Shown here: positions 44,506-64,000 of the stretch, in pieces
How positions within the stretch are numbered: the stretch's first letter is position 1
How the letters are laid out: every line of letters begins with the position of its first letter
From: Micromonospora halotolerans
GTDB taxonomy: Bacteria; Actinomycetota; Actinomycetes; Mycobacteriales; Micromonosporaceae
Direction of reading: 5' to 3'
Assembly: GCF_032108445.1 (NCBI RefSeq)
Contig: NZ_CP134876.1
Location: forward strand, 1,240,001-1,304,000
Length of the DNA: 64,000 bases
Made by a program: the position numbers and the translations under genes
The notes under the pieces: model-generated
What the model was told of the DNA's origin: nothing
Databases searched by the model: none
The model's input: the letters and a program-made list of their open reading frames with translations, nothing else

Positions 44506-44678
44506 CGGGCGCTCTGGTGGTGGCGTGGACGGAACATTGGACGTCCTCCCCGAGTAGTGACTGTCCAGGTCCGACCGACGCTAGTAGTGAATGTTGCTCA
44601 AGTCACCTGTCGATCACCGCCGACGATGCGGGGCGGTTGAGTAAGCACCGCACGGGTCGCGGTCGTGGTACGTCCGCG

Positions 44679-48552: not shown

Positions 48553-48653
48553 CAGAACCACAACCGGCGACTTCTGACAGAGCACACCGCCCCTGTCGGA
48601 CCAGCGCCTGTCAGGAAGCCCGCCTCCTGACAGAACCTGACCCGACCTGTCAG
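48528..48653 (+). repeat. seven iteron-like CTGACAG/CCTGTCAG motifs
   Basis: The short motif (CTGACAG or its reverse complement CCTGTCAG) occurs at about 48528, 48550, 48574, 48592, 48607, 48626 and 48646, alternating in direction. Copies 1, 3, 5, 6 and 7 match well. The spacing is 15-24 bp. The cluster lies inside a short Cys-rich reading frame between two mobile-element genes, so it may be an origin-like, transfer (clt-like) or regulator binding site. Confidence 0.55.
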
Positions 48654-49013
48654 AGCGAACACCGCCCCGCGCGCCACGGCGCTCGCCGCCAGTGCATCCA
48701 CTGCCCCTCCACCCGCACTCCGGTCTTTGAGCGAGCGACGAGCATGCTGATCCAGCTCAACGGCCCCCACCAGCGCCACCAGCGCTGTCACCGACCCGCA
48801 ACACCCGCCCTCTCACACCACGATTGCAGCGGTGCGACCGGCCATGCCGGTGTCGGTGTCGATCCCCGTCCCACTGTCCGCCTTGAGACCGACCCCCAAA
48901 CTGACCCCCGATACTCGCTGACAGCCCAGGTCAGGTCGGCTCTCACCGACCCCGAGTGGTTCCAGACACACCCTCATGCGTGGGGTGTCCCCCCAGGGGC
49001 CGCCCATGCGTAA
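48549..49013 (+). CDS. small hypothetical protein, mobile-element region
   Basis: This 154-residue frame starts with a GTG overlapping the DUF2637 gene stop and ends inside the start of the replication-relaxation gene. It is Thr/Pro/His-rich with seven cysteines, several in pairs (RQCIHCP, TSACQEA). The start-stop coupling on both sides supports it, but the composition is repetitive because the DNA motif cluster lies within it. It could be a fortuitous frame. No function is suggested. Confidence 0.4.
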   Translation: MTEPQPATSDRAHRPCRTSACQEARLLTEPDPTCQSEHRPARHGARRQCIHCPSTRTPVFERATSMLIQLNGPHQRHQRCHRPATPALSHHDCSGATGHAGVGVDPRPTVRLETDPQTDPRYSLTAQVRSALTDPEWFQTHPHAWGVPPGAAHA

Positions 49014-49944
49014 ACCGCTACCCGCGCCGGATCCGCTGCTGCGCCTGCAGGCCAGCATCACCGCCCGCGACGACCGCCTCCTCGGCTGGCTCTACGACCA
49101 CGGACTGCTGACCACCGACCAGATCGCCACCGCCCTGTTCCCATCCCTCGATTTCGCTCAGCGCCGGCTACGCCGCCTCACCGTCCTTCGGGCGGTGGAC
49201 CGGTTCCGGCCCAACAAACCCGACGGTGGCTCCTACCCGTACCACTACGTCTTGGACCAGCTCGGCTACAGCCACGTCCACGCCCAACGCGGACTCGGCC
49301 CGCCACGTCGGGACCAGGCCCGCCGTCGCAAACAGTCCCTCACGTCGCGCCCGGACCTGCCCCATCTGCTTGGCGGCAACCAGGTCTTCATCGACCTGGC
49401 CGCCCACGCCCGCAGCCACCCCAACAGCCGTCTGGACCGCTGGCAGCCCGCGTCCGCCTTCCACGACCCGGGCGTGTTCTACCGCAAAGGCGGAGACCCG
49501 CAGATCATGGCCCGCGGACCGAGCGGCCTGCCCCGCCCGGACGGCGCCGGGGTGTGGACCGAGCAGGACCGTGCGGTGCCGTTCTTCCTCGAATACGACA
49601 CCGGCCGCGAGCGCCTCGACATCCTCACCGAGAAGATCGCCAAGTACGAACGCTTGTACGCGATGAGCACCTGGGCATGGCCGGTCCTGTTCCACCTACC
49701 GTCGGCGCGACGGGAGGCGAACCTGCACCACCGCCTCACCGGCACCACGCCACGAGCGTTCATCGCCACCACCACCGCCGACCTACGCGCCGCCACCAGC
49801 GCGAGCCCCGCCGACCAGGTGTGGCACCTGGTTGGTCTCGGCGCCGGCCGTCGCCGCCTCATCGACCTGCCCTACAACGACACCCGCCACGACCAGGAGT
49901 TCCCTAGCCGCAGCGCGGCCCGGCCGCACGGGCGAGCATCCTGA
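49006..49944 (+). CDS. replication-relaxation family protein
   Basis: This 312-residue protein fits the Replic_Relax family of actinomycete mobile elements: an N-terminal winged helix (TARDDRLLGWLYDHGLLT) and the typical middle segment HVLGxN-like reading HLLGGNQVFIDLAAHA, then PFFLEYDTGRERLDIL. It is thought to assist plasmid or element replication (DNA relaxation). The ATG at 49006 follows CAGGGGCC. The integrase, Rep and Tra genes of a complete element are not seen, so this is a remnant. Confidence 0.82.
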   Translation: MRKPLPAPDPLLRLQASITARDDRLLGWLYDHGLLTTDQIATALFPSLDFAQRRLRRLTVLRAVDRFRPNKPDGGSYPYHYVLDQLGYSHVHAQRGLGPPRRDQARRRKQSLTSRPDLPHLLGGNQVFIDLAAHARSHPNSRLDRWQPASAFHDPGVFYRKGGDPQIMARGPSGLPRPDGAGVWTEQDRAVPFFLEYDTGRERLDILTEKIAKYERLYAMSTWAWPVLFHLPSARREANLHHRLTGTTPRAFIATTTADLRAATSASPADQVWHLVGLGAGRRRLIDLPYNDTRHDQEFPSRSAARPHGRAS

Positions 49945-49951
49945 TGGCCTT

Positions 49952-49994
49952 GACGGTGTGAGCAGCCCCGGTTGACCGGGCTGCTCACACCGTC
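49952..49994. terminator. long perfect hairpin terminator
   Basis: GACGGTGTGAGCAGCCC / GGGCTGCTCACACCGTC, a perfect 17-bp stem with a 9-nt loop, lies between the replication-relaxation gene and the convergent DivIVA-like gene. One arm contains an alternative shifted pairing. Confidence 0.8.
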
Positions 49995-50070
49995 TGTTCC
50001 GTAGCGGCGGGTGCGGGAGGACCGGAAGCCGGGCAGGCACCTTCGACCAAGCGGCGAGCCAGCCGTGAGG

Positions 50071-50325
50071 TCACGGAGCTTGGTACGTCCGCTGCTGCGA
50101 CTGCCACGCCCGTAGGGCACACTTGATGCGCTGGTTCTCCGCCCGCACGTCGTCCCGCTCGCGAGTACGCCGCTGCAGCTCGAAGGCAAGGCGGTGCAGC
50201 AGAGCATCGACTTCGTCGACCCGATAGCCGCGCCGCCCTCGTCGGGTCAACGGCAAAGGCAGCGCGGCGATCCGATCCGGGGTGAGCGGGCCGCGCAGGG
50301 CGTGCCGGCTGCGGTAGACGGTCAT
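50071..50325 (-). CDS. small DivIVA-domain protein
   Basis: This 84-residue protein has the DivIVA N-terminal helix motif RRGYRVDEVDALLHRLAFEL followed by a charged coiled-coil (TRERDDVRAENQRIKC). Full-length DivIVA proteins are longer, so this is a short variant of the kind seen beside actinomycete mobile elements. Its ATG overlaps the oxidoreductase stop (ATGA, 50322-50325). A role in membrane targeting or pole recognition is inferred. Confidence 0.75.
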   Translation of the reverse strand: MTVYRSRHALRGPLTPDRIAALPLPLTRRGRRGYRVDEVDALLHRLAFELQRRTRERDDVRAENQRIKCALRAWQSQQRTYQAP

Positions 50326-51479
50326 CGCCACGGGATCCGTTCCGGCAGGTGGATCCGTGCTGCGGGCACGCCGGCGGCGAGCAGCCGCAACCGCGCGCCG
50401 GCCAGCATCGCCGGCGGACCGCAGACGTACACCTGCTGGCCGGGACGATGGTGGTCGAGGGCGACGGTCAGCGCATCGCCCCGCTCCCCCGGCTCGGCCA
50501 GCGGATCATGGGAGAACGCCGGCACGACGGTCAGCCAGTCGTGGGCCTGCTGAAGCTTGTCGAGAGTGATCGCGTCGTACAGGCTCGCCACGTCACGGCT
50601 TCCGGCGATCAGCGTCACCTGTCGGCCGTCCGGGGCGGCGGCGACCTGCTCGACGATCGCGCACAGCGGCGCCAGCCCGGTGCCGCCGGCGATCAGCAGC
50701 AGGTCCCCGCAGTGCAGGCTCAGCCCGGTGTCCGTCGGCGGGCCGAGGTAGAGCAGCTCGCCGGGGCATACCTGATGGACCAGGCTGGTGGAGACGGCGC
50801 CGCCGCAGACCGCGCGGACGTGCAGCTCGACGGTGCCGTCCGGGCGCGACGCGTTCGCCGGGCACAGCCAACGCCACCGGCCGGGCCGGCGCGGCGTGCA
50901 GACCGGCACCGCCTGGCCCGGCCGGTAGGGCAGCCGCCGCCACGGCCGTACCGTGAGGATCGCGACCCCGTCGCAGGCCAGGTCGTGGTCGAGCACCTCC
51001 ACCGGCCACCAGGCCGGGCCGTCCCCTGCTCTTGTGGCTGCCCGCTCGACCTCATGCCAGGGCACGGTGGTCCGCAGCGCGTCGTCGATGACCGTCTGAT
51101 GCTCTGGTCGCAGGCCGAAGCGCCGGTACGCGCGGCCCAGGACGCTCAGCAGCGCCAGCTTCTCGGGGCGGTCCGGCCGGTCGGCGAGCCGGCGCACAGC
51201 GGCCTCGACCAGCGGGGCCTCCCGCTCCGGCAGCAGACCCGGGCAGCGGTCCTCGACCTCCTCCCAGAACGAGCGCCGCCGCAGGTAGCTCTCCGCGCGC
51301 CGGCGCTCGGCCTCCGACCAGCCCAGGTACGGCAGATCGGTGCCGGCGGCCAACGCTCTTGCCACCTGCTCCGTCAGCCGGTCCCGGTCCACCCCGATCA
51401 GGTACGGGGACAGTTCCACGTCCGCCGCGACGAGGCTGAGCCAGCGGGCGACCGCCTCGGGCGTCGCCTGTTCCGTCAC
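50322..51479 (-). CDS. flavohaemoglobin-like reductase with altered haem ligand
   Basis: This 385-residue protein has a ~120-residue N-terminal globin-like domain joined to an FAD-binding domain and a NAD(P) domain (LLLIAGGTGLAPLCAIVEQV, VYVCGPPAMLAG). The stretch GRAYRRFGLRPEHQTVID aligns with the proximal-His segment of flavohaemoglobins (QKHTSFQIKPEQ in E. coli Hmp), so the haem-binding His would be a Tyr here. This suggests lost or changed haem use. The GTG at 51479 overlaps the stop of the preceding 73-residue gene (GTGA). The alignment is by eye. Confidence 0.72.
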   Translation of the reverse strand: MTEQATPEAVARWLSLVAADVELSPYLIGVDRDRLTEQVARALAAGTDLPYLGWSEAERRRAESYLRRRSFWEEVEDRCPGLLPEREAPLVEAAVRRLADRPDRPEKLALLSVLGRAYRRFGLRPEHQTVIDDALRTTVPWHEVERAATRAGDGPAWWPVEVLDHDLACDGVAILTVRPWRRLPYRPGQAVPVCTPRRPGRWRWLCPANASRPDGTVELHVRAVCGGAVSTSLVHQVCPGELLYLGPPTDTGLSLHCGDLLLIAGGTGLAPLCAIVEQVAAAPDGRQVTLIAGSRDVASLYDAITLDKLQQAHDWLTVVPAFSHDPLAEPGERGDALTVALDHHRPGQQVYVCGPPAMLAGARLRLLAAGVPAARIHLPERIPWR

Positions 51480-51697
51480 GCCGGCTCCCCGAGCTGCTCC
51501 TCTGTGAGGCCGGCGGCGTAGATCGTGGCGTGGGCCCAGCGGGCCGGGCGGCACGGGTTCGGTACGCGTTCGCTCCGGCACAGCTGGCCCCACGGCCACG
51601 GCCCGGGAGCGTGGACGCGCACCGCGTGGACGGCGAGCGCCAGGTCCTCGTCGGTGACCGGGGTGAGCACGGGACTCTCGGCGAGTACGGCGGACAT
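51476..51697 (-). CDS. small hypothetical protein, first gene of the flavohaemoglobin-like operon
   Basis: This 73-residue protein (ESPVLTPVTDEDLALAVHAV, later ARWAHATIYAAGLTEEQL) has no signature I recognise. It starts at an ATG after GGAGGCGC and overlaps the next gene's GTG, so it is co-transcribed with the reductase and the DivIVA-like gene. The small size and coupling suggest an accessory or regulatory subunit. Confidence 0.6.
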   Translation of the reverse strand: MSAVLAESPVLTPVTDEDLALAVHAVRVHAPGPWPWGQLCRSERVPNPCRPARWAHATIYAAGLTEEQLGEPA

Positions 51698-51946
51698 CGG
51701 TGGGCGCCTCCGGCGGTGGGGTGCGTGGAGTGGCGCCGGGGCGGGCGGGGACGACCGCCGCCGTACGGGGGAACGACGCGGCCGGAGCCCAGCACCCGCC
51801 CCGGGCCATGCGTCTAGCCTCGGGCTCAGCCTGAGCAGGAACTACAGCGCCGGAGGAGCCTCCGTGACGCAGAAATGAGGCGTCTGCGTACCCGCCGGAT
51901 CGACGGGGTGTTACTACAGTGGCGGCAGAACGGAGGGAGATCGGGC

Positions 51947-53185
51947 GTGGCCCTGAAGCGGCACCGACTCTGTCAGCGACGCAAGGCCCTCGGGTTCAGC
52001 CAGGAGCGCCTGGCCGAGCTTCTCGGCGTGGAACGGTCGACCGTGGTGCGCTGGGAGAACGTCGAAACAGATCCTCAGCCGTGGCATCGAACTCGGATTG
52101 CCTTCGCGTTGGGAGTTACGCTCGAACAGCTCGACGACATGCTTGTTGACGTGTCGGTGGCAGCACATCGAGGGCAGGCCATGGGAGATGACGCTCGTAG
52201 TGCCGCCCCCAGCGCCGCACGGCTGGAGCTACTGAGCGGACTACGCACGTTCCTCACCAGCTACCTGACGGCGTCCGAGGGGCCGATGCCATCGCTTGTC
52301 GAGGTGCGGCGGGGCGTTGGCCGGGTACACAACCTCTACCAACGGGCGAGCTACACGTCGGCCGCTCGCCTGCTGCCGGACGTGCTCAGCCAGGCTACAG
52401 CCCTAACTGGCCACGCCAGCGGACTGCATCGCAGCAGCGCCTTTCGGCTGCTCGCTGCCGCCTACATCGCGGCATCGAAGCTGGCAGCCAAGGTCGGTGA
52501 CGGTGACACCGCCCTGCTGACCGCCGACCGGGCTTCCACCGCCGCCCGGCTGGCGGACGACCAGGCCTTGGCAGCCGTGGCCGCCTATCAGGCGGCATGC
52601 GGGCTCATGTTGCTGCCCGGGAGAGCGGGCGACGCCGAACAGATCGCGCTCACCAGCGTCAACCGCCTCGGTGCCGTTGACAACCCAGACCTGCTGTCTG
52701 CGCAGGGAGCGCTGGTACTGCTGGCTGCCGTGATGGCCGCTGGACAGCGCAGCTCTAAGGAAACGGGCCAGTTCCTTGCGCAGGCCGGAGACCTGGCGGC
52801 GGTGCTCGGCTCAGATCGCAACCGGCTCTGGACCGGATTTGGTCCGACGAATGTCGTCATCCACGCGGTCTCCGCTGCGGTTCGAGCCGGCAATGCGGAT
52901 CAGGCGCTGGAGATCGGGTCGCGGCTCGACACGTCGCGGTTGCCGGCGGTGCTGGTCGGTCGACGGGCCCAGGTACACGTCGACTTGGCGGCAGCGGCGT
53001 TCATGTCCGCCGGCGATCGATCGGTCTCCGTGCTGCACCTTCTTGAGGCAGAGCGGGTGGGCGCCGAGGTGGTTTACGCCAACGTGCAGGCGCAAGCGCT
53101 GCTGCTGGACCTGCTGGCCAAGGAACGACGGGCGCCTACGCCAGGGCTGCGGCCGCTGGCGGAGCGGGCTGGGCTGCTGGCATGA
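51947..53185 (+). CDS. XRE-family regulator with TPR-like domain
   Basis: This 412-residue protein has an N-terminal HTH (LGFSQERLAELLGVERSTVV, then RWENVETDPQPW) and a long alpha-helical C-terminus with TPR-like repeats (SAFRLLAAAYIAASKLAAKV), a common layout for actinomycete pathway and morphogenesis regulators. GTG 51947 follows GGAGGGAGA. It is coupled to the flavoprotein gene (ATGA) and lies ~725 bp upstream of the Dpd operon. Confidence 0.88.
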   Translation: MALKRHRLCQRRKALGFSQERLAELLGVERSTVVRWENVETDPQPWHRTRIAFALGVTLEQLDDMLVDVSVAAHRGQAMGDDARSAAPSAARLELLSGLRTFLTSYLTASEGPMPSLVEVRRGVGRVHNLYQRASYTSAARLLPDVLSQATALTGHASGLHRSSAFRLLAAAYIAASKLAAKVGDGDTALLTADRASTAARLADDQALAAVAAYQAACGLMLLPGRAGDAEQIALTSVNRLGAVDNPDLLSAQGALVLLAAVMAAGQRSSKETGQFLAQAGDLAAVLGSDRNRLWTGFGPTNVVIHAVSAAVRAGNADQALEIGSRLDTSRLPAVLVGRRAQVHVDLAAAAFMSAGDRSVSVLHLLEAERVGAEVVYANVQAQALLLDLLAKERRAPTPGLRPLAERAGLLA

Positions 53186-53676
53186 CTCAACGGGGTGTGC
53201 TGGCTCTGGTGGTCTGTGCCGCTCCTCCGGTGCTGCGGATCGGTGAGCTGATTGAACTGCTGCTCGCAGACGGGTGGGCCGTCTGCGTGACCGCTACGCC
53301 GACAGCAGCGACGTGGATTGATCGGGAGGCCTTGGCGCGCCAGACGAGGTATCCGGTGCGGGTGGAGTGGCGAATGCCCGGCGAGCCGGAACCGCACCCG
53401 TCGGCGGATGTCGTCGCCGTGGTGCCGGCGACCTTCAACGTGATCAACAAGTGGGCTGTCGGAATCAATGACACGCCTGCGCTCGGCGTCCTGCACGAGG
53501 CGCTCGGCGTTGGGATCCGGGTGTACGCATTTCCGAACGTCAAGGCGCAGCTTGCCGCCCATCCGAGCTACGACCAGCACCTACGCCTACTTCAGGATTC
53601 GGCCGTCATCGTGTCGCCGCTGCCTGCCGAGTTGGACTGGCCGATGGTCGCGGAGCAACTCAGGACGCCCGTGTAA
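53182..53676 (+). CDS. flavoprotein (PPC-decarboxylase-like fold)
   Basis: This 164-residue protein has the flavoprotein family look: a VLALVVCAAPPVLRIGELIE lead and DVVAVVPATFNVINKWAVGI in place of the usual FMN/substrate site (TFNTINK). The full dfp Lys/Cys pattern is not evident, so it is a flavoprotein of unknown reaction rather than phosphopantothenoylcysteine decarboxylase. The ATG overlaps the regulator stop (ATGA). The regulator-plus-flavoprotein pairing recurs in actinomycetes. Confidence 0.82.
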   Translation: MTQRGVLALVVCAAPPVLRIGELIELLLADGWAVCVTATPTAATWIDREALARQTRYPVRVEWRMPGEPEPHPSADVVAVVPATFNVINKWAVGINDTPALGVLHEALGVGIRVYAFPNVKAQLAAHPSYDQHLRLLQDSAVIVSPLPAELDWPMVAEQLRTPV

Positions 53677-53795
53677 CCCCTCCCGCAGCCGGCTCCGGCG
53701 GGCAGACTTCCCACCGGCTGAGCCAGACGGCCAGCCTGAGCCACTGCGACCGAACCGGTCACGACCGAGTGCGAAGGACACGCCCAGGTCACCTT

Positions 53796-53823
53796 TCGAC
53801 AACGCGCAGTACTCGGGTAACGT
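53796..53823 (+). promoter_or_regulatory. candidate promoter of the Dpd operon
   Basis: TCGACA and TAACGT, 16 bp apart, lie ~90 bp upstream of queC. The leader to the queC ATG contains a possible stem GCAGTA...TACTGC (about 53838-53874). Neither motif is strong; no preQ1-type riboswitch is recognised. Confidence 0.3.
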
Positions 53824-53909
53824 GACGCAACCTGCGAGCAGTAACTACGCATCACTGGCGGAGCAAGCTACTGCAGTTTCTCGACCATCGACGAAGCGAG
53901 GAGCCTCAG

Positions 53910-54611
53910 ATGTCGGCAGCCAAGCCCCAAGCGGTAGTACTGCTAAGCGGCGGTCTGGACTCGGCCACGGCCCTTGCAGTGGCCGTCAAGAAGGGGTTCG
54001 AGGCCAACGCCCTGAGCTTCCGCTACGGCCAGCGGCACACGGTAGAACTCGAAGCCGCCGCCCGGGTCGCTAAGGCCCTGGGGGCGACGCGGCACGTTGT
54101 TGCGGACATCGACCTTAGGGTGTTTGGCGGATCTGCCCTGACCGACGACGAACTCGCTGTGCCCCACCATGAGAGCGCCGAGGAGATCGGGAGCGAGATC
54201 CCCATCACCTACGTGCCCGCTCGAAACACCATCTTTTTGTCGTTCGCGCTTGCCTGGGCGGAGACCTTGGGGGCGTCCGATGTCTTTATCGGCGTAAGCG
54301 CCCTTGACTACAGCGGCTACCCGGACTGCCGACCGGAGTACATCGAGGCATACGAGCGGATGGCAAACCTCGCCACCAAGGCAGGCGTCGAGGGCACCCA
54401 GCGCATGAAGATTCACACACCTCTCATCGACCTAACGAAGGCAGACACCATCCGGCTGGGCCTCAGCCTTGGCGTCGACTACTCGCTCACCCACAGTTGC
54501 TACGACCCCGTCGAAGGCCGCCCCTGTGGCACATGCGACTCCTGCCTGCTCCGCACCCGAGGCTTCGCCGAACTCGGTATGTCAGACCCTGCCGTCGGCA
54601 GCACGGCATGA
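53910..54611 (+). CDS. queC: QueC, 7-cyano-7-deazaguanine (preQ0) synthase
   Basis: This 233-residue ATP-dependent enzyme converts 7-carboxy-7-deazaguanine to preQ0 (nitrile). The PP-loop motif [11 protein letters not shown] is at the N-terminus and the C-terminal zinc cysteines are in HSCYDP and CGTCDSC. Start ATG follows GAGGAG. No preQ1-forming QueF is adjacent, which fits DNA use of preQ0 (Dpd) rather than tRNA queuosine synthesis. Its stop overlaps the queE ATG. Confidence 0.96.
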
Positions 54612-55255
54612 GATCCGCGTACCGCATTAAAGAGATCTTCTACACCCTGCAGGGCGAAGGTACCCATGCTGGGCGGCCCGCGGTCTTCTGTCGGTTCACA
54701 AGCTGCAACCTCTGGACAGGCCGCGAGGCCGACCGTCATCGCGCCATATGCCAGTTCTGCGACACAGACTTCGTAGGTACTGATGGGCCAGGAGGGGGCC
54801 GCTTCCGGTCAGCTCAAGATCTGGCGGCAGCGGTGGCGAAGGCGTGGGCCGGTGCAGCCCACCCGAGGAGCAGACCATACGTTGTCTGCACTGGCGGAGA
54901 GCCGCTACTGCAACTCGATGCTGCTGCTGTCGACGCCCTTCATGACGAAGGCTTCGAGGTGGCTATCGAGACGAACGGGACGCGGCCCGCACCCGCTGGC
55001 ATCGATTGGATCTGCGTCAGCCCGAAGGCCGGCAGTGAACTGATTCTCACCGAGGGCGATGATCTCAAGCTTGTCTACCCCCAACCGGGGGCGGAACCTG
55101 AACGATTCGAAGGCCTGAACTTCGCCAACTTCCTCCTTCAGCCCATGGATGGGCCCGACCAGGCGGCGAACACTCGGGCAGCCATCAGTTATTGCCTCGC
55201 CCATCCTCAATGGTCCTTGAGCCTGCAGACACACAAGTACATCGGGATTGCTTGA
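54608..55255 (+). CDS. queE: QueE, 7-carboxy-7-deazaguanine synthase (radical SAM)
   Basis: This 215-residue radical-SAM enzyme has the CX14CX2C cluster motif (first Cys in SCNLW, then CQFC) seen in some QueE proteins instead of CX3CX2C. It keeps [22 protein letters not shown] and ETNGTR. It converts 6-carboxytetrahydropterin to 7-carboxy-7-deazaguanine. ATG overlaps queC by 4 bp and its TGA overlaps the next ATG by one base. Confidence 0.95.
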
Positions 55256-55614
55256 TGGAAATCTTCCGTGAGTTCACCTTCGAAGCTGCTCATCGCTTGC
55301 CGCACGTGCCCGAGGGGCACAAGTGCGCTCGCCTCCACGGGCACTCCTATCGCGTTGAGGTACACGTGCGCGGCGAGGTCGGAGCGTCATCCGGATGGGT
55401 CATGGACTTCGGCGACATCAAGGCAGCATTCCGGCCCCTCCTCGACCAACTAGACCACTACTACCTGAACGAGGTGCCGGGCCTCGAGAACCCGACCAGC
55501 GAAGTGCTGGCGCAATGGATCTGGGCGAGACTTGTCGATCAGCTGCCGCTGTCGGCCATCATGGTCAGGGAGACCTGCACCTCGGGCGCCGTCTACCGGG
55601 GCGATGCCTCGTGA
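55255..55614 (+). CDS. queD: QueD, 6-carboxytetrahydropterin synthase
   Basis: This 119-residue protein has the QueD motif CxxxHGH (CARLHGHSY, catalytic Cys), Zn ligands His in AAHRL, HGH, and an E in VRETCTSG. It makes 6-carboxytetrahydropterin from dihydroneopterin triphosphate. The GTP cyclohydrolase I step must come from elsewhere in the genome. It is the third preQ0 gene of the operon and overlaps the next GTG by 4 bp. Confidence 0.94.
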
Positions 55615-56615
55615 CGGAGGCGACGGCCGACGAGCGTTCGCCAGGTGTCCCTGCAGATAGCAACAGCCCGCCGCAGGCGCCAGCCCGCGTTCATATCGTC
55701 GTCACCTGCGCAAACCGCAAAAACCTGACAGTGCCTGCGGCGCTGCAGGTCAGAGCCCTGTCGAACTACCCACCCAGGCAAAAGCTCGCAGAGTGGACCC
55801 GCCGACTGTCCGAACCTAGCCAGCCTTCCACTGCCGCAACGTCGCTCTATGCTGGCGAGCACTGGGCCGTGGCACGTCAGCTGGTCAACCCGAGAAGCGT
55901 GGAGACGCAACTCTGGATCTGCTCCGCGGGGTACGGACTGGTCCCCGCCACCGCGCAGCTTCGCCCCTACGCCGCGACCTTCGCGTTGCGCGAAGCAGAC
56001 TCGGTCGGACAAGGTTCGACCGAGAACCGCGACTGGTGGCGGGGACTAAGCGAGTGGGTTGGCCCGGAACCCGGTACGCCCCGATCGTTCTACCACCTGG
56101 CCCGAACGAATCCCAACGACACGATCATCGCCGTCCTATCGGATACCTACCTTCGGGCGTGCAGTGATGACCTCCTGAGGGCGGCAGCGCGGCTACGCGA
56201 CCCGCAACGGCTGACAATCGTTGGGCCGGCTCAGGCGGACCCCGACTTGGACGAGCTGGTCGTCGGCGTGACCGCTCGCATGAGACCGGCAGTCGGCGGC
56301 AGTCTGCTCGCCCTTAACGTCCGCGTTGCGCAGCACCTCATGGGCCGAGTCACCGCCGAGCCTCGCACCCACCGCCGCTCGTACTTCCGGGCGCTCGCCC
56401 ACGAACTGGCAGCCGCCGCGCCCCCGCCGCCGCCTCCGACTCACCGTGAGCGCATGACCGACGACGAGGTTAAGGCCTTCATCCGGCCACTGGCGGAGGC
56501 CGGGCCAACCTCGGCAACCCGCCTGCTCAGACAACTACGGAACTCCGGCAAGTCATGTGAGCAGGCACGTTTTAAGCAGCTGTTCGATGAGATCTCGCTG
56601 GAAGTGCACTGCTGA
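55611..56615 (+). CDS. YaaA/UPF0246-like protein in the DpdC position
   Basis: This 334-residue protein has [14 protein letters not shown], later [13 protein letters not shown] and then [19 protein letters not shown], matching the YGLL-PxDxxxPY pattern of YaaA/DUF328-type proteins. The remainder is not recognisable. In known Dpd clusters DpdC converts the DNA preQ0 nitrile to an amide. I recall a YaaA-like fold being suggested for DpdC, so this gene is the best candidate for that step, but the link is inference. It is start-stop coupled on both sides. Confidence 0.55.
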
Positions 56616-57757
56616 TGGCGCCCTCACATGACTCGAAGAACATCGCACGCCGTGCGCTGCGAATCGCTCAGCCGGGCACTCCGGCCCTCTACCTCTTCGC
56701 ACTGCAGGCAGAAGAGGTACTCCAAATCGCAGACATCTCCCGCGTCAGCCGAGACGACGCCGGGAAGCTGATCGGCTACCAACGCCCCCAGGTACGGAAG
56801 CACATACAAGAAATCGTCGAGTACCTCGACACCGAGGCTGCCGTCTTCCCCAACCCCATCATCTTGGCCCTGTCGTCCAGCGTCCGGTTTCAGTCGAGCA
56901 GAGGGCCAGGTGCCGCGGATGGACTCGCGACCTCCGGGCTACTTAGCATTCCCCTGCCGCAATCCGGCAAGCCGAAGCCCGCATGGATCGTCGACGGACA
57001 GCAGCGAGCCCTAGCGCTTTCCCGTACCCAACGGCAGCAGTTTCCGGTACCAGTGACGGCGTTCGTGGCGGACAGCGTCGTTTTCCAGCGCGACCAGTTC
57101 CTACGCATCAACAACACGCGCCCACTGCCGCGGGGCCTCGTGACCGAACTTCTGCCGGAGGTCGACAGCCCGCTACCTCCTCGACTCGCAATCCGGAAGG
57201 CGCCCTCGGCGCTGTGCGACGTACTGAATGCCGACAAGGCGTCGCCGTTCTACGGGCTGATTAAGCGGGCGTCGACCAACCGGCAGCAGGCACCGAACGC
57301 TGTGATCACGGACACCGTCGTTGTCGAGATGATCCAAGAGAGCCTCACCTCGCCGGCGGGCTGCCTCTTCCCCTACCGCGACGTCACCCGCAACGAGACT
57401 GACTTCGACGGGATCCTCCAGGCACTCTGCACCTATTGGTCAGTAGTGCGTGACACGTTCCCCGAGGCCTGGGGCAAGCCGCCCACCAAGAGCCGCCTCA
57501 TGCATGGTGCCGGAATACGGGCTATGGGACGGCTGATGGATCGCGTGCTGGGCACGATTGATCCACGCCTCCCCGAGGCGCCCGAATTGATCAGCAAACA
57601 CCTCTCCGTGATCGCGCCGCATTGCCAATGGACGGGAGGAAGGTGGGACGAACTCAACCTTGGTTGGAACGAGATTGAGAACGTGTCCCGCCATGTGCAG
57701 GAATTGTCCAATTACCTCATCCGCGTCTACCTGAACGAACGGGCGGGAATTCGATGA
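56615..57757 (+). CDS. dpdB: DGQHR-domain protein, DpdB-like (copy 1)
   Basis: This 380-residue protein has the DGQHR-type motif as WIVDGQQRALAL near residue 125, YQRPQVRKH near 55, and WGKPPTKSRLMHGAGI near 290. These motifs mark the ParB/Srx-like DpdB family, an ATPase that works with DpdA in DNA base exchange. It shares all three motifs with the second copy, but overall identity is low. ATG overlaps the previous stop by one base and its TGA overlaps dpdA by 4 bp. Confidence 0.82.
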   Translation: MAPSHDSKNIARRALRIAQPGTPALYLFALQAEEVLQIADISRVSRDDAGKLIGYQRPQVRKHIQEIVEYLDTEAAVFPNPIILALSSSVRFQSSRGPGAADGLATSGLLSIPLPQSGKPKPAWIVDGQQRALALSRTQRQQFPVPVTAFVADSVVFQRDQFLRINNTRPLPRGLVTELLPEVDSPLPPRLAIRKAPSALCDVLNADKASPFYGLIKRASTNRQQAPNAVITDTVVVEMIQESLTSPAGCLFPYRDVTRNETDFDGILQALCTYWSVVRDTFPEAWGKPPTKSRLMHGAGIRAMGRLMDRVLGTIDPRLPEAPELISKHLSVIAPHCQWTGGRWDELNLGWNEIENVSRHVQELSNYLIRVYLNERAGIR

Positions 57758-58995
57758 AGTTCTTCTTCCCCGACAGCCAGGACCAGGTAGACCCCACCTT
57801 CGACTTTCAAACCGAGGAACGCGACCCGTTCCGAGTGCGTCAACGCGATGACCTGTACGCCCACGAAGTGTTGAAGCCGCCGCCGTTCAACGGTCTCTTG
57901 GTCTCCAAGGCAATCGTAGACGGGACTGCCGGCTCCAGCACCGGCAAGTACACCCTGCCCCAGCGCCACAGGCTCTACCGACAAGGGGCCCGTGAGTTCT
58001 TCCGCCTCGACAATGGCAGCGCGCCGTTAAAGATCATGGGTGACTGCGGAGCCTTCTCGTACGTCGGCGAGGAGTACCCCCCCTACACCGTCGAAGAGGT
58101 CGTCAGCTTCTACGAGGGGTGCGGGTTCGACTACGGCATCTCCGTCGACCACGTTATCTTCCAGTACGAGCCGAAGGTCCTTCGTACCGACGAGGCGGCC
58201 AAGGAGTGGGTCCGACGGCAACAGATCACCCTCGATCTCGCCGCAGAATTCTGGCAACGTTGTTCAGCCAGCGACGTTCACTTCACGCCTCTGGGAGTAA
58301 CTCAGGGTTGGAGCCCGGAGTCATACGCCTATGCAGTGGTGGAACTACAACGGATCGGGTACCGACGGATCGCGGTCGGTGGCATGGTGCCGCTGAAGAC
58401 GAAGGAGATCCTCGCCTGCCTCCGCGCCATCGACGATGTACGTGCGCCCGACACCCAGTTGCACCTCCTAGGTATCAGCCGCGTCGACGAAATTCCGACG
58501 TTCGCTGGCCACGGCGTAACGAGCTTCGATAGCACGTCGCCCTTCCGCCAGGCGTTCAAGGATGACCGGGACAACTACTACGCGCTCGACCGGACCTACG
58601 TGGCGCTTCGCGTCCCTCAGGTCGACGGGAACGCGAAGCTCAAGGCGCGGATTCGCTCCGGTGAGATCAGCCAAGGGCAGGCCATGCAGTTGGAGCGGGC
58701 CGCGCTGGCCCGCCTTCGCGAATTCGATAGGGGCGAGATCGCCCTTGACGCCGCCCTGGAGGCGTTGGACGCCTACAGCGCGGTGTGGGACGGTAAGGCA
58801 AACAGGAGCAGCCAGTACCGCGACACGCTCGAAAATCGGCCTTGGCAGGCCTGTGACTGCTCGATCTGCAAGAAGGTCGGCATCGAAACAATCATCTTCC
58901 GTGGGGCGGAGCGCAATAAGCGCCGCGGCTTCCACAACCTACACGTATTCGGGCAGCGACTGCGCCGGCAGCTTGGAGATGACGACCGTGACTAA
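57754..58995 (+). CDS. dpdA: DpdA, TGT-family DNA 7-deazaguanine transglycosylase
   Basis: This 413-residue protein is of the tRNA-guanine-transglycosylase superfamily. Catalytic-site residues are IMGDCGAFSYVGEE (Asp equivalent of the TGT nucleophile pair) and GISVDHVIFQYE, with VGGMVPLKTKEI for the phosphate/barrel part. A zinc site near the C-terminus is CDCSICKKVG plus HNLHVFG. In Salmonella, DpdA exchanges guanine for preQ0 in DNA. Here it sits between two DpdB-like genes directly after preQ0 synthesis genes, which fits the same role. ATG overlaps the first dpdB by 4 bp. Confidence 0.92.
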   Translation: MKFFFPDSQDQVDPTFDFQTEERDPFRVRQRDDLYAHEVLKPPPFNGLLVSKAIVDGTAGSSTGKYTLPQRHRLYRQGAREFFRLDNGSAPLKIMGDCGAFSYVGEEYPPYTVEEVVSFYEGCGFDYGISVDHVIFQYEPKVLRTDEAAKEWVRRQQITLDLAAEFWQRCSASDVHFTPLGVTQGWSPESYAYAVVELQRIGYRRIAVGGMVPLKTKEILACLRAIDDVRAPDTQLHLLGISRVDEIPTFAGHGVTSFDSTSPFRQAFKDDRDNYYALDRTYVALRVPQVDGNAKLKARIRSGEISQGQAMQLERAALARLREFDRGEIALDAALEALDAYSAVWDGKANRSSQYRDTLENRPWQACDCSICKKVGIETIIFRGAERNKRRGFHNLHVFGQRLRRQLGDDDRD

Positions 58996-60178
58996 GCAGG
59001 GAGACGAGAGCGCCGTGGCCGCGAGCTCTGGGAAGGTCCTACATCTTCCGGCTCTTGAGATCAGGCAGGGACCCAACCGCCGTCTGTACACGTTCGCGGT
59101 GGACGGCAAGCAAGTCCCATCGTTCGCCGCCGTCTCGCGCGTCCGCCGCGACAGTCAGCAGCAACTGCACGGCTACCAACGGCCTGAGGTCCTGGCGCAC
59201 GTGGCGGCCATCCGCCGGTACGTAGAATCCGACGACAGGCCTCTACTGCCGAACGCAATCGTCGTGGCCTTCGACGACCGGGTTCGCTTCCTCCCTGCCG
59301 ACACCGCCAGCGACGGACCTGGCTATGTCCGGATGGGAACCCTCGTGGTACCCGTGAGCGAGGACTGGGAGGACGCCGACAAGCCCGGCTTCATCGTGGA
59401 CGGCCAGCAGCGTTGCGCGGCCATCCGGGACGCGGAAGTTCCGGCCTTCCCTATCTGCGTCACCGCCTTCATCACCGCCGACCAAGCCGACCACCGGTCG
59501 CAGTTCATCCTCGTCAACTCCACCAAGCCACTACCCAAGGGCCTGATCCACGAGTTGCTCCCGGCCGCGTCTGGGCCGCTGCCGAATCAGCTACGCGTGC
59601 GGCAGCTCCCCGCGACGGTCCTTGAGCGGCTGAACTTCGAGGAGCGTTCGCCGCTACGTCACATGATCCAGACGCCAACCAATCCCGCGGGCGTCATCAA
59701 GGACAACTCCATGCTGCGCATGCTCGAGAACAGCATCTCGAATGGTGTCCTGTACCGGTTCCGCGGAAGCGACGGAACCCTGCCCAATATCGGACTGATG
59801 GTGACCGTATTGAGCGACTTCTGGACGGCGGTGCGGGAGGTCTTCGGTGAGAATGCGTGGGGCAAGCCTCCTCGCAAGTCGCGGCTAATGCACGGGGCCG
59901 GTATCATCAGCATGGGATACCTGATGGACGCCATCGCCGATACGAACAGCAGCGGCGAGGAGTTCCCGGACGTGCAGGGATTCGCCGCGGGGCTGAAGAC
60001 GGTGAAGGACTACTGCCGCTGGACCGAAGGCACCTGGGATCTGGGCGACGGCATTCCTCGGCGCTGGAACGACGTCCAGAACACTCCCCGCGACATCCAG
60101 CGGATCACCGACTTCCTGGTATCGACGTACTACGCCAAGCAGGGAAAGCGGCACGAGCGGTCGAGTAGGCTCTTCTAG
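58988..60178 (+). CDS. dpdB: DGQHR-domain protein, DpdB-like (copy 2)
   Basis: This 396-residue second DGQHR protein has YQRPEVLAHV, FIVDGQQRCAAIRD and WGKPPRKSRLMHGAGIISMG. It is a clear paralogue of the gene upstream of dpdA, not a recent copy. GTG 58988 with GGAG 9 nt before it is preferred; ATG 58979 is also in frame. It overlaps the dpdA 3' end. The operon then ends with a weak hairpin (AGCAG/CTGCT). Two DpdB-like proteins may form a heteromer or serve different steps. Confidence 0.8.
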   Translation: MTKQGDESAVAASSGKVLHLPALEIRQGPNRRLYTFAVDGKQVPSFAAVSRVRRDSQQQLHGYQRPEVLAHVAAIRRYVESDDRPLLPNAIVVAFDDRVRFLPADTASDGPGYVRMGTLVVPVSEDWEDADKPGFIVDGQQRCAAIRDAEVPAFPICVTAFITADQADHRSQFILVNSTKPLPKGLIHELLPAASGPLPNQLRVRQLPATVLERLNFEERSPLRHMIQTPTNPAGVIKDNSMLRMLENSISNGVLYRFRGSDGTLPNIGLMVTVLSDFWTAVREVFGENAWGKPPRKSRLMHGAGIISMGYLMDAIADTNSSGEEFPDVQGFAAGLKTVKDYCRWTEGTWDLGDGIPRRWNDVQNTPRDIQRITDFLVSTYYAKQGKRHERSSRLF

Positions 60179-60949
60179 CAGTAACGCCTGCTCTGGGCGA
60201 GCGCTGGGCCTGACACCTCAGGCGCACCCCCCGTCCCTCGGCGACCGGGCGTGGGACTGCGACGGGCCGCCCGCCGTCGCGGAGGCCGTAGAGCTCGCAC
60301 GGAAACTCCTCAGGCAGTGCCGCTCTGTGCCAGGGCGGCGGTTGCGGCAGGGACCAGCGAAGTCGGGGCCACTGCCGTCCGCCTCCCGGACGACAGTCAT
60401 CGGCCTGCTCCTGGATCGGATGAAGCTTATGGCCGCGTGAGTCGCACAACGCGTCGCGATAACGACGACATCAGCGGGCCGTACCCACTGCTTGAGCTGA
60501 CGGCCCGCGACGTGGTCGTGGCCGGCTCGTGACGACGTTGACCTGTGATGCGAGGGTCGCCAGTGCGAGGGCTACGCCGTCGAGAGCCTTTCGTGGGAGT
60601 AGGGGAGCACTCCCTGCGCCGGCACGTGTGACCATGCCGAGTCGGCTGCTTCCTCGGCCCGAGTAGGCCACGGAGTTCGACGCCGATCTCCGTGCTCAGT
60701 TGGGCTGCAAGCATCTTCGATCTGTCGCCCTCACGGACAGCCGCTGGGTTACGAGACGTCCCTAGGCTAAGGCCTTGCTCGGCCGGGCGGAGCCGGTCGC
60801 GGCAGAACTGCTGGACTGCCCGCAGATTTGGCGGACCAGTGCAGTAGGCCGCCGGCCGTACCGCGTGCGGCAACGTTTGATCGTTGCTAGATTACGAGTC
60901 GTCGGCAACCAGACAGAGCCTAAGCCCGTTCCATCACGATCGCTCAATA
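60179..60949. other. 771-bp region without a supported gene between convergent Dpd operons
   Basis: The region separates the modification operon from the facing DpdD/DpdK operon. Open frames exist on both strands, notably a minus-strand stretch reading PLLPRKALDGVALALATL around 60.5-60.6 kb, but they lack ribosome sites and appear broken by frameshifts. This may be a decayed gene. Nothing else is evident. Confidence 0.4.
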
Positions 60950-63154
60950 TCACTCGCAAAACCGCCCCAACTCGCGCAGCATTGCAGACGACCCTTTTGA
61001 GTGTACGTAAATGATGGGGCGCCCATTCCGTTTTTGCTCTATGAATTCGGTAGCCGCATGCTTAGCCGACGCTGTGGCGATCACGACGACATCCGCGTTC
61101 GTACTCATGTCTGCGAGGCGTTCGCTTCCCACGTGATCGGCCGTCGTGACGACATCGATCGAGGGAACGATTCGTCGCAGCGTCTCGGCGGCACGACGCG
61201 CGGCCGACTCCATTAGGGAATACAGCACGACGCGCCGGCCTGCCAAGCACCCGTACAACTCCGGCTCGGGAAGCAGGCCGGCTGCCCGGATCTGCTCTAG
61301 GTCGGCAGGGAGCGACAGGTCGAGAGATTCGCACACGGCCGCGACCGACTCGAGCGCGACAGAGTCGAGGGCCGTTCGTAGGCGCCGGAGATCATCAAGG
61401 GAACTGTACAAGTACCGCTGGCGGGCAGCATGCGCCTGCTTGGGAATGACGTGAAATGCGACCGTTTGCAAAAGATCGGTTTGCCAGTCAATGGAGCTAC
61501 TCGCAGCCATCGAGCCCCGGATTACATCGAGCCATTCGAGGGCCGCCTCGACCTGTTCACCTGATGGACCAGCCGCCAGCAACGTATCGATCAAGCTGAG
61601 CACCTGCACCTGAACACCTGCAGATGTCCTGCCGCTCAGCGCGAGTGCAGCAATCATCCGCTCCGCCACCGCTGCCTTTGCAGGACCGTCAAGGACGCCC
61701 GCATGAAGTGCCAAGAACCTACCTGCTACCAACCCCAAGACCTCGAGCGTAGCGTCAGAGGAGCTCCACATGCGCGCCTGGACCTCAGCTTGGGGTAGAG
61801 GCGTCCACTGGTCGGCGAGGTCGCTGATCCAACCGACTGCCTCGTCCTGCGCGACACCTGTCGCCACGCGATCGAACCACGAAGCCCAACCGTTCGGCCC
61901 GCCTGTCTCGATTAGTCCCTCAAGAACCGCAACCGCCGTCCTCCCCACGACGCCTGAGGCGAGTACTGCTGCGCGCAAAGCTTCTTCACCGGCAAGCATA
62001 TTTAGCGCGACGCGAGCGGCGTCGGGTGTACCGATGTCGGCTGCCGCGCTAACGGCTAAGCGGGCGGCAGCGAGACTTCCAGTCATCGTCACGGCGACTT
62101 CGAGGGCGCCGAGTGCGTCGCCACCGACGTAACGAGCCGTGGCTTCAGTCATCGGATCACGTGGAGGCCGTAATGGCACTACCGGCTCGGCCTCAGCCGC
62201 CGAGCGCAAACGCTTGAGGCGGCTTCGGAGCCCAATTTGAACGGCGTCAGCGTTGTCAAGGAGCCGTTCGATGAGGGCCGCTCGAGTGGACTCATCAGCT
62301 GCGATAGCAAACAAAAACTGGACCAGAAGTTCGGACCGGGACGCGGCTGGAGGACTCCCTGTTGTCAAGCCGGCGTATTGCTCGCTCACGTCCTCGAAGG
62401 CAGCGAGAAGAGCCCCGTCGCGCTCCTCGGCGTCGAGACTGGCCAGATGAACGCCATAAACGGCCTGCTGGATGGCGCGAGTGACCCCTGGGGGACGCCT
62501 CATGCCTAGAACGTCGGGGAGCGCGGGATCCTTGAGGACGTCTTGCCACTGTTCTAGTCCGGCGTGCACGCGGAAACGGACGAACGCCATGTTCGTCTCG
62601 TCCAGATCCCCACCCGAGCGCAACTCGACGAGCAAGGTCTGCGCGAGCCCACGATCTCCGGTGGACATCGCGTGCCCGAGATCCTCTAGCACCTCTCCTG
62701 AGGATCTAGTAGCTCGGAACTCAGAAGGGGGGCGACCGTCAAGGAGACGCACCATGCGCTTAAGGGCACTCCGCACCTCGAGTTTCGCTGGAGTGGCACC
62801 GGCGCCAGTTCTAGGCAGAACTTCGAAGCGTAGAATCGACGAAGGTCGTTCGGCGGCGAGAGTAGCGTCAAACGGATCCGACCTGTCGAGGCGCCCGCGG
62901 GAAGATGCCAAGTCGCTGGCGGTCGGCCCAACCCACGCGTCGAGTAGAGCCAGTAACTCCCGTCTAGACCTACTGTCCGGAGCCAAGCCGTACCACCAGA
63001 GGCGCCCCTGCCAGAGACGAGGCAGAAAGGCAATACCGGCACCCTCATCGGCCGCTCGCAGCCAAGGTTCGATGACATCCCGCAGTGATGCGGGAAGTTC
63101 CGAGACGTCAAGTTCGTTGCCCTGCCCAAAGAAGCGAGCGAGAAGACTGGTCAT
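60950..63154 (-). CDS. dpdD: DpdD-like protein (Dpd restriction arm)
   Basis: This 734-residue protein is long, Ala/Leu-rich and mostly helical, with no classic catalytic motif. The C-terminus ends in a Rossmann-like part (GCLAGRRVVLYSLMESAARR, NADVVVIATASAKHAA). Position and size fit DpdD of the Dpd cluster, whose function is unresolved but which is needed for the restriction phenotype set of genes. ATG 63154 overlaps the DpdK-like stop by one base; a TTG just upstream was rejected. The assignment rests on operon context and size. Confidence 0.6.
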   Translation of the reverse strand: MTSLLARFFGQGNELDVSELPASLRDVIEPWLRAADEGAGIAFLPRLWQGRLWWYGLAPDSRSRRELLALLDAWVGPTASDLASSRGRLDRSDPFDATLAAERPSSILRFEVLPRTGAGATPAKLEVRSALKRMVRLLDGRPPSEFRATRSSGEVLEDLGHAMSTGDRGLAQTLLVELRSGGDLDETNMAFVRFRVHAGLEQWQDVLKDPALPDVLGMRRPPGVTRAIQQAVYGVHLASLDAEERDGALLAAFEDVSEQYAGLTTGSPPAASRSELLVQFLFAIAADESTRAALIERLLDNADAVQIGLRSRLKRLRSAAEAEPVVPLRPPRDPMTEATARYVGGDALGALEVAVTMTGSLAAARLAVSAAADIGTPDAARVALNMLAGEEALRAAVLASGVVGRTAVAVLEGLIETGGPNGWASWFDRVATGVAQDEAVGWISDLADQWTPLPQAEVQARMWSSSDATLEVLGLVAGRFLALHAGVLDGPAKAAVAERMIAALALSGRTSAGVQVQVLSLIDTLLAAGPSGEQVEAALEWLDVIRGSMAASSSIDWQTDLLQTVAFHVIPKQAHAARQRYLYSSLDDLRRLRTALDSVALESVAAVCESLDLSLPADLEQIRAAGLLPEPELYGCLAGRRVVLYSLMESAARRAAETLRRIVPSIDVVTTADHVGSERLADMSTNADVVVIATASAKHAATEFIEQKRNGRPIIYVHSKGSSAMLRELGRFCE

Positions 63155-63669
63155 CAAGGCAACATCCCAAACCGCGCATGGTAGTCAAGGCGTGCACGAG
63201 ACAGGTCGTCCGCGTCTCCAGTCACCGTGATGCCCTCCTCGTTGACAGCGCGCCCATGGTGCGTGAAGTTCATGGAACCTTGGACATGGATTCGCGACGT
63301 TAGGAGGCCCTTGTCGTGGAGTTGATCGATGATCTGAACATCGACGGAGTCGGCCGCGCCTGGCGTTCCACGCAATCGATCCAGCACCGACTGGTGGCGG
63401 GGATCGTTTCGTGCAAGAACGTGGACATGCGATCCGCGCTTGGCTAACTCGAGCAGAACTTCAGTCAAACGCAAATGTCGCGCCGGCGCACCGGGGATGA
63501 GACTTATGACCTCTCCTCCCCGATTGTCCACGACGGGTATATCCGAGATCCAAGGCGACAACAGCCAGACGTCCGGCGACGGCGCAATAAGTTCCGAAAC
63601 AAACACTGTTTCGATGAGATTATCGAGAGTGCGAGTTGCACCGCCCCCCCGCGTTGTTAGCCGCCTCAA
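63154..63669 (-). CDS. dpdK: DpdK-like phospholipase D-fold protein
   Basis: This 171-residue protein has one HKD-type site: HDKGLLTSRIHVQGSMNF, where His-x-Lys and the following Gly-Ser-Met-Asn-Phe fit the PLD half-motif (the acidic position is not clear). One half-site per chain implies a dimer. PLD-fold proteins in defence systems are nucleases. The best start is a TTG at 63669 overlapping the upstream stop (TTGA). DpdK is the PLD-type member of the known Dpd cluster. Confidence 0.68.
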   Translation of the reverse strand: MRRLTTRGGGATRTLDNLIETVFVSELIAPSPDVWLLSPWISDIPVVDNRGGEVISLIPGAPARHLRLTEVLLELAKRGSHVHVLARNDPRHQSVLDRLRGTPGAADSVDVQIIDQLHDKGLLTSRIHVQGSMNFTHHGRAVNEEGITVTGDADDLSRARLDYHARFGMLP

Positions 63670-64000
63670 GATACGATCTCCGCCAGTTCCAAGCGCACGA
63701 GCGTGGCCCCATCCGCAGTATGCGTAACCTCAGCTATGTACGGATATATGTGAAGGAATTCAGTCTCGATTGGTTCCGTCATCAGGCCAACGAGCACGTC
63801 ACTGACTTCCGCCTCCTGACCTGGTCCGCCCCGCAAGCGGGCAGCGCCATCCGTTGAAAGCACGTGCCGCAGCCGCCCGGCAGCATCAGGGTCGCTGATG
63901 TCGACGGTGACGGTCCCATCGATAAGAATTGCCCTCAGCACCTCGGGTGCAGGGTCAGGGAGAACTGTGTACGGATTCCAAGACTGGAGGGCAGCCGAGC
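63666..64000 (-). CDS. C-terminal part of an unrecognised Dpd-linked protein (gene continues past the right edge)
   Basis: The frame is open from its stop to the window edge: after the GTG at 63941 it continues upstream as SWNPYTVLPDPAPEVLRAIL, so the start lies outside. The visible end is VDISDPDAAGRLRHVLSTDG ... ELAEIVS, acidic with no motif I recognise. By position it may be another restriction-arm gene such as DpdJ (a helicase) or DpdI; this cannot be decided here. It overlaps the DpdK-like gene by 4 bp. Confidence 0.6.
   Translation of the reverse strand, partial: SAALQSWNPYTVLPDPAPEVLRAILIDGTVTVDISDPDAAGRLRHVLSTDGAARLRGGPGQEAEVSDVLVGLMTEPIETEFLHIYPYIAEVTHTADGATLVRLELAEIVS

Follow-up and report, generated by a model that had tools for sequence, protein, structure and literature searches.

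Results

Layout of a Dpd island in Micromonospora halotolerans

We analysed a 64,000-nucleotide stretch of DNA, hereafter the window, which spans bases 1,240,001-1,304,000 of the single-contig, 6.96-Mb genome of the soil actinomycete Micromonospora halotolerans and contains the left part of a putative island for 7-deazaguanine modification of DNA (Dpd). A preliminary description, made from the sequence alone, had recognised queC-queE-queD, a dpdA gene of the tRNA-guanine transglycosylase (TGT) family, two DGQHR genes and facing dpdD- and dpdK-like genes, and had proposed an apparently complete, mostly start-stop coupled Dpd locus continuing past the right edge. Each of these genes scored over its NCBIfam curated cut-off in the place described, and the profile search extended to the right detected DpdJ, DpdH, DpdG, DpdF and DpdE over theirs, so that the helicase and ATPase genes, the lack of which would have spoken against the proposal, are present and the locus indeed continues, to position 79,251 (coordinates above 64,000 are window numbering extended into the adjoining DNA of the same genome). 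The island consists of two facing operons. The marking operon, on the plus strand (53,910-60,178), has the order queC-queE-queD-dpdC-dpdB1-dpdA-dpdB2, with neighbouring genes overlapping by 1-17 bases; the restriction operon, on the minus strand (60,950-79,251, extending 15 kb beyond the window), reads dpdD-K-J-I-H-G-F-E from the left, with overlaps of 1-4 bases and one 2-base gap, as the proposed coupling would have it. Profiles from NCBIfam and PADLOC name 14 of the 15 genes, dpdI being assigned by position, length and a weak match, and 14 profile matches within one 25-kb stretch cannot be due to chance. The island is thus very probably a member of the known Dpd restriction-modification family, from which its DNA chemistry is extrapolated.

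The marking operon opens with genes for 7-cyano-7-deazaguanine (preQ0) synthase (queC, 53,910-54,611; TIGR00364, 211.8 bits, cut-off 150.3), 7-carboxy-7-deazaguanine synthase (queE, 54,608-55,255; TIGR04508, 356.7 bits, cut-off 240) and 6-carboxytetrahydropterin synthase (queD, 55,255-55,614; TIGR03367, 117.4 bits, cut-off 89.25). The next gene, dpdC (55,611-56,615, GTG start), which the preliminary description did not mention, was named here through the PADLOC DpdC profile (E = 1.8e-68, residues 26-328 of 334); it has no NCBIfam match, and its DUF6884 match lies below the Pfam cut-off. Its product would be expected to convert preQ0 in DNA into the amide (ADG). The dpdA gene, for a TGT-like DNA transglycosylase (57,754-58,995; NF041059, 607 bits, cut-off 200), stands between two DGQHR paralogues, dpdB1 upstream (56,615-57,757; NF041060, 424 bits, cut-off 300) and dpdB2 downstream (58,979-60,178; NF041060, 475 bits, cut-off 300). 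The TGT-like residues D97, D259, C367, C369, C372 (CxCx2C) and H394 of DpdA are invariant among 29 aligned DpdA sequences, and the best-named homologues of both DpdB1 and DpdA come from Micromonospora.

The restriction operon, all on the minus strand, comprises dpdD (60,950-63,157; NF041061, 505.7 bits, cut-off 300), the phospholipase D (PLD)-like dpdK (63,154-63,669; NF041068, 164.7 bits, cut-off 100), dpdJ for a 1500-residue helicase (63,666-68,168, its 3' part up to 64,000 lying in the window; NF041067, 1716 bits, cut-off 800), a dpdI-like gene for a 238-residue protein (68,171-68,887), dpdH (68,884-71,913; 629 bits, cut-off 450), dpdG (71,910-72,845; 150 bits, cut-off 80), dpdF (72,845-75,460; 668 bits, cut-off 550) and dpdE (75,457-79,251; 1047 bits, cut-off 500). 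The spacer between the facing operons (60,179-60,949) holds only mechanically called open reading frames (ORFs), and no Rfam family, hence no preQ1 riboswitch family, scored over threshold in 44,000-64,000. An ARAGORN call of tRNA-Leu(CAG) at 55,077-55,152 on the minus strand, antisense inside queE, was taken as probably false. Genes for an XRE-type regulator and a flavoprotein-like protein (51,875-53,676) adjoin queC, as they do the islands of three relatives, G451, G415 and G512 (G-numbers denote genome samples, L-numbers the loci compared and WIN the window island).

Discordant histories of the marking and restriction operons

The comparison within the genus covered the islands of all 14 other Micromonospora genomes with DpdA over cut-off. 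Recognisable copies of dpdD, K, J, H, G, F and E, but not of dpdI, are present in 12 of these islands; the G514 island ends at a contig edge and that of G408 is cut. Among the 14 islands with visible restriction genes, the restriction operon is convergent with the marking operon in nine (window included), lies downstream in the same direction in four and upstream in one (G408). The DpdA of the window is 97% identical to that of G521 and 98% to that of G451; for the restriction proteins of the same two islands, identity to the window is 34 and 33% (DpdK), 38 and 36% (DpdJ) and 34 and 31% (DpdE), respectively, and DpdD either reaches 23-27% or remains unaligned over a quarter of its length. The restriction operons appear to fall into four lineages, represented by the window alone; by G521, G469 and G478, with the more distant G438, G412, G397, G460 and G482; by G451 and G415, with the more distant G408; and by G512 and G533. 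DpdJ identity between these lineages is 25-41%, and the DpdJ of an Enterobacter plasmid is 22-35% identical to them. The restriction genes nearest to those of the window among 81 Dpd loci compared belong to Terrabacter (L102, L106), Streptomyces (L071, L072, L074, L081) and Cellulomonas (L086), at 39-58% identity (24% for DpdI), with DpdA at 54-57%.

Alignment of island pairs as DNA presents the same discordance: 4 of the 10 pairs align on both sides of a replaced restriction operon of about 18 kb. In the pair G415 and G512, identity is 93.2% from the left flank through the marking operon as far as the end of dpdB2; their restriction operons yield no alignment of at least 150 bases, and alignment resumes, with 90.7% identity, at points 375 and 765 bases upstream of dpdE. 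For G533 and G412, identity is 97.1% up to the end of dpdB2 and 93.5% in the right flank; their restriction operons differ in lineage and run in opposite directions. G469 aligns with G415 and with G512 at 88-89% on the left and 80-82% on the right, the restriction operon being unaligned but for short scraps. G412 and G438, which share a restriction lineage, have restriction operons that align at 71%.

Phylogenies of 13 islands under LG+G4, built from QueC+DpdB1+DpdA+DpdB2 or from DpdK+J+F+E, were compared by the approximately unbiased (AU) test; G514 and G408, in which restriction genes are absent or partial in the DNA examined, were left out. The marking data reject the restriction groups G512+G533, G521+G469+G478 and G451+G415 (p-AU 3e-6, 3e-75 and 2e-30), and, conversely, the restriction data reject the marking groups WIN+G521+G451, G415+G512+G469 and G533+G412+G438 (p-AU 2e-5, 7e-39 and 5e-91). 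Two points weigh against taking these tests at face value: the groups were picked after the identity table had been seen, which makes the p-values descriptive, and long branches in the restriction tree prompted a warning from the program. Could the restriction operons have diverged in place through very fast evolution, without any exchange? Restriction proteins of defence systems can diverge quickly, but the restriction lineages cut across the marking tree, uniting G521 with G469 and G478, G451 with G415 and G512 with G533, and divergence in place would hardly turn around the operons of G533 and G412 between aligning flanks. We regard such an origin of the differences as extremely improbable.

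Part of the wider sample shows a similar discordance. The 81 loci include 15 pairs with DpdA at least 95% identical, of which 5 have DpdK at 32-44% (DpdJ 38-52%), 2 differ in layout and 8 agree; these pairs are not independent, four of the five discordant ones being from Streptomyces, with a milder DpdJ difference (50-52%), and the fifth (L029/L030) apparently representing the same strains as G415 and G512.

A probable junction inside dpdB2

The 3' end of dpdB2 in the window (59,776-60,178, plus strand) is likely to be a recombination tract that arrived with the restriction cassette. With the sites on which G521 and G451 are identical as reference, the window has 114 differences at 5515 sites as far as 59,776 and 41 at the 369 sites beyond, a change reached in 0 of 500 permutations (scanning covered each site of the real series but one in 20 of the permuted ones, a slight advantage for the former). 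The same type of break was found in dpdB2 of G512 and of G415 (0 of 500 permutations each), whereas G521, compared with the sites on which the window and G451 agree, has none (91 of 500 permutations reach the observed value), and G451 instead has a change-point near its 5' end. The idea that this part of the gene merely evolves fast was rejected, given that G521 lacks the change seen in the window, G512 and G415. In the last 60 columns of dpdB2, G451 is 92% identical to its restriction partner G415 and 77-85% to the other five sequences; over the first 1200 columns, which span nearly all of dpdA, the identity of G451 is 96% to the window and 81% to G415. A general rule linking the 3' tip of dpdB2 to the restriction lineage fits G451 and G415 but fails for G521, G469 and G478 and was abandoned. 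Overall, recombination inside the 3' end of dpdB2 would explain most of the junction pattern, and in the window the tract appears to start near 59,776, within the gene. On the other side, the DNA upstream of dpdE (some 200-500 bases, about 79,289-79,794) recurs in 4 of 6 relatives (67-79%) and also in the island-less genome G440 (73%), which makes the stretch near 79,590-79,794 a candidate for the right-hand end.

Two DpdB paralogues around DpdA

In 69 of the 81 loci, dpdB1 precedes and dpdB2 follows dpdA (DpdB-like pieces below 200 bits, in L052, L059, L082, L087 and L098, were left out beforehand). The same positions are occupied in the four alphaproteobacterial plasmid loci placed in the DpdB tree, where the upstream copies group with B1 and the downstream copies with B2; in this tree, the window's own dpdB2 clusters with the sole DpdB from the Enterobacter plasmid. 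The DGQQR motif is kept in 70 of 70 B1 and 78 of 81 B2 sequences, including both window copies. From their positions, we regard dpdB1 and dpdB2 as ancient paralogues with fixed places, and the B1-A-B2 order of most loci suggests that the poorly understood DpdB acts there as two distinct subunits. Counting against this is a dpdA on an Acetobacter plasmid with no annotated dpdB beside it, from which it follows that the order is not universal; together with a Paenibacillus plasmid locus, which likewise has dpdA and no annotated dpdB in the stretch, it was not used for the tree. A Variovorax dpdB, with no dpdA in its stretch, belongs among the downstream copies of the alphaproteobacterial loci, and another DGQHR protein, the third of Agrobacterium, lies far outside the groups of the tree. 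Orphan dpdB genes also occur on two actinobacterial plasmids (L131, L132) with no annotated dpdA nearby, one next to dnaE and the other next to DNA cytosine methyltransferase genes.

Foldseek, queried with the DpdB1 model, found nothing at E 1e-3; a second look with VIA-align hinted at a relation of its N-terminal domain to ParB/sulfiredoxin (Srx) chains, and DpdB2 is predicted to have a ParB-like N-terminal domain of the same kind. Both proteins match the Pfam family of DndB, a reported regulator of phosphorothioation (PT) modification (PMC4507180), which invites the idea that one paralogue is a regulator rather than a component of transglycosylation. We consider this doubtful, if far from negligible: both genes lie inside the operon, on either side of dpdA, and both products have DGQQR and the same kind of predicted N-terminal domain.

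Integrity of the restriction operon

DpdE, DpdF and DpdJ contain Walker A, DEAH/DEIH and motif-VI-like strings and DpdH a Walker A string, as expected of helicase motifs; motif alignment of DpdK recovers HxK and GSxN. Ahead of its helicase region, DpdE has a Topo-type zinc-ribbon match just below the Pfam cut-off, and 6 of 29 related ORFs in the loci align there.

Several observations weigh against a fully functional restriction half. Directly upstream of dpdE lies a 395-bp partial gene copy (79,257-79,651), 78% identical to the 5' part of an AAA/helicase-type gene (34,017-35,339) that is itself open and situated 44 kb to the left; because this copy occupies the sequence upstream of dpdE, the promoter region of the restriction operon may be disturbed. 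The dpdI product reaches only 27.8 bits against NF041066 (cut-off 150), with residues 1-234 aligned to profile positions 1-239, lacks any PADLOC or Pfam match, and gave no blastp match at E 1e-3 to the protein of the same place, also unnamed, on the Enterobacter plasmid. In DpdK, the last place of the string HDKGLLTS is D or E in 12 of 13 Micromonospora relatives and K in the Enterobacter copy. Among the relatives, dpdH of G451 (L147-L148) is read in two overlapping frames, compared with a single frame in G415, through either a real break or a sequencing error, so that not every cassette need work. The upstream copy and the weak DpdI match, along with an IS481-type transposase gene nearby, would fit an island in which the marking half works and the restriction half is silent or defective, such that DNA is marked and nothing more. 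Nevertheless, all eight restriction genes are open and closely coupled, the helicase motifs are kept, and the stretch upstream of dpdE is conserved in relatives, even if its presence in G440 lessens the force of this point. On balance, a silent restriction half seems unlikely, and a working restriction operon is the preferred reading.

Fate of preQ0 and acquisition of the island

The enzymes QueC, QueD and QueE are the same in the queuosine and toyocamycin pathways, so that preQ0 might feed tRNA modification or a deazapurine metabolite instead of DNA. The genome has no match to the TGT family PF01702 at E 1e-3 (controls 14/14 positive; DpdA is too distant for that search) and none to QueF (PF14489) at the same threshold (controls 8/14 positive), which leaves preQ0 without a known tRNA route in this strain (QueA, QueG and QueH were not among the searches). 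The only QueC over cut-off is encoded in the island, as are the only two DpdB proteins, and both FolE genes lie outside it. In addition, the que genes are coupled in one operon with dpdC-B-A-B. With other deazapurine pathways not among the searches, we consider a tRNA or metabolite destination highly improbable, and the earlier suggestion that the layout fits DNA rather than tRNA use gains support at the scale of the whole genome.

The island is read as acquired. The marking operon has a GC content of 63.6% and the restriction operon one of 62.4%, compared with 73.4% in stretches further left and 70.2% further right. DpdA over cut-off occurs in 15 of 160 genus genomes and in 2 of 396 genomes of the phylum sample, the strain's own included in both counts, and the same-species genome G440 has no DpdA match. 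Synteny with G440 breaks at 44,616 and resumes at 82,784; some 21 kb of other DNA fills the gap, so that G440 does not offer a clean empty site. The variable stretch holds a replication-relaxation gene (48,976-49,944) and the IS481-type transposase gene (80,886-81,884). The replication-relaxation protein and a DUF2637 protein (47,665-48,552), both left of the island, suggest the remains of a plasmid or integrative element.

Discussion

By analogy with the Dpd family, FolE, encoded elsewhere in the genome, would act with QueD, QueE and QueC to make preQ0; DpdA, aided by the putatively ParB-like DpdB1 and DpdB2, would swap guanine in DNA for preQ0, DpdC would turn it into the amide, and the helicase, ATPase and PLD machinery of DpdD-K would block or destroy unmarked DNA. 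Upon this scheme, we propose, as the likely interpretation of the comparisons, that in Micromonospora, and probably in Streptomyces as well, the eight-gene restriction operon forms a cassette that can be exchanged while the marking operon stays conserved, with at least four lineages that differ from one another about as much as from that of Enterobacter and have been swapped, through recombination into the 3' end of dpdB2, behind marking operons up to 97% identical as DNA. Marking, with its B1-A-B2 core of two non-redundant DpdB proteins, would be retained throughout, and the exchange possibly provides escape from phage inhibitors; the restriction side, rather than the mark, would then be the part under pressure to change.

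Because marking operons that scarcely differ are paired with several restriction lineages, these lineages should have recognition of the mark in common; put differently, if the cassette behaves as proposed, a single mark is read, or at any rate tolerated, by highly divergent restriction machines. The Micromonospora islands thus constitute a natural experiment, in which restriction machines with only about a third of their residues in common are presumably served by one DNA mark. With paired strains, G415 and G512 for example, one could address which of the restriction proteins reads the mark and whether marking by itself gives immunity.

Dpd islands as such are well documented, a published survey having reported 2,335 unique dpd windows, of which 333 come from Actinomycetota (PMC11888242). 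In published Dpd work, DpdA and DpdB insert preQ0, DpdC converts it to ADG, and DpdD-K restrict unmarked DNA (PMC6884629, PMC11888242, PMC12839542). Exchange of the restriction cassette is not described in the literature searched, outside which most subscription papers fell, and the same texts count extra dpdB copies. The one record in the phage collection with a DpdA relative (43%), MT835580.1 (H42), comes from human faecal samples and is unannotated there.

DISARM and Druantia are not known to have dpdA-C marking. Both of them, and also BRIGADE, have a YprA-type helicase in common with DpdJ; BRIGADE does possess a deazaguanine cluster and is reported only from halophilic archaea (PMC12458937). 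Closer at hand, the alphaproteobacterial plasmid loci of Sinorhizobium, Agrobacterium, Caulobacter and Bradyrhizobium share with the window the order dpdB-dpdA-dpdB but, unlike it, have the que genes after dpdB2, and no dpdD-K is annotated within 6-12 kb on each side, except for a dpdD about 11 kb away in Agrobacterium. The Enterobacter cloacae plasmid pPOL9A (L128) resembles the window in that dpdA-dpdB are convergent with dpdD-K-J-(unnamed)-H-G-F, the stretch ending inside dpdF; it differs in having one annotated dpdB, of the B2 type by the tree, and in that the feature table of this stretch, which is incomplete, lists no que gene, and its DpdA and DpdJ are 49 and 35% identical to those of the window. 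The Dpd systems of Salmonella Montevideo, Kineococcus and others have the same dpdA-C and dpdD-K in synthesis and restriction operons on patchily distributed islands (PMC11888242). The island described here differs from these, in the case of Salmonella by its published description, in its two dpdB genes and in that its Micromonospora relatives pair the same marking operon with other restriction operons. Relative to the known Dpd islands, it is the exchange of the restriction operon and the existence of two DpdB families that merit attention.

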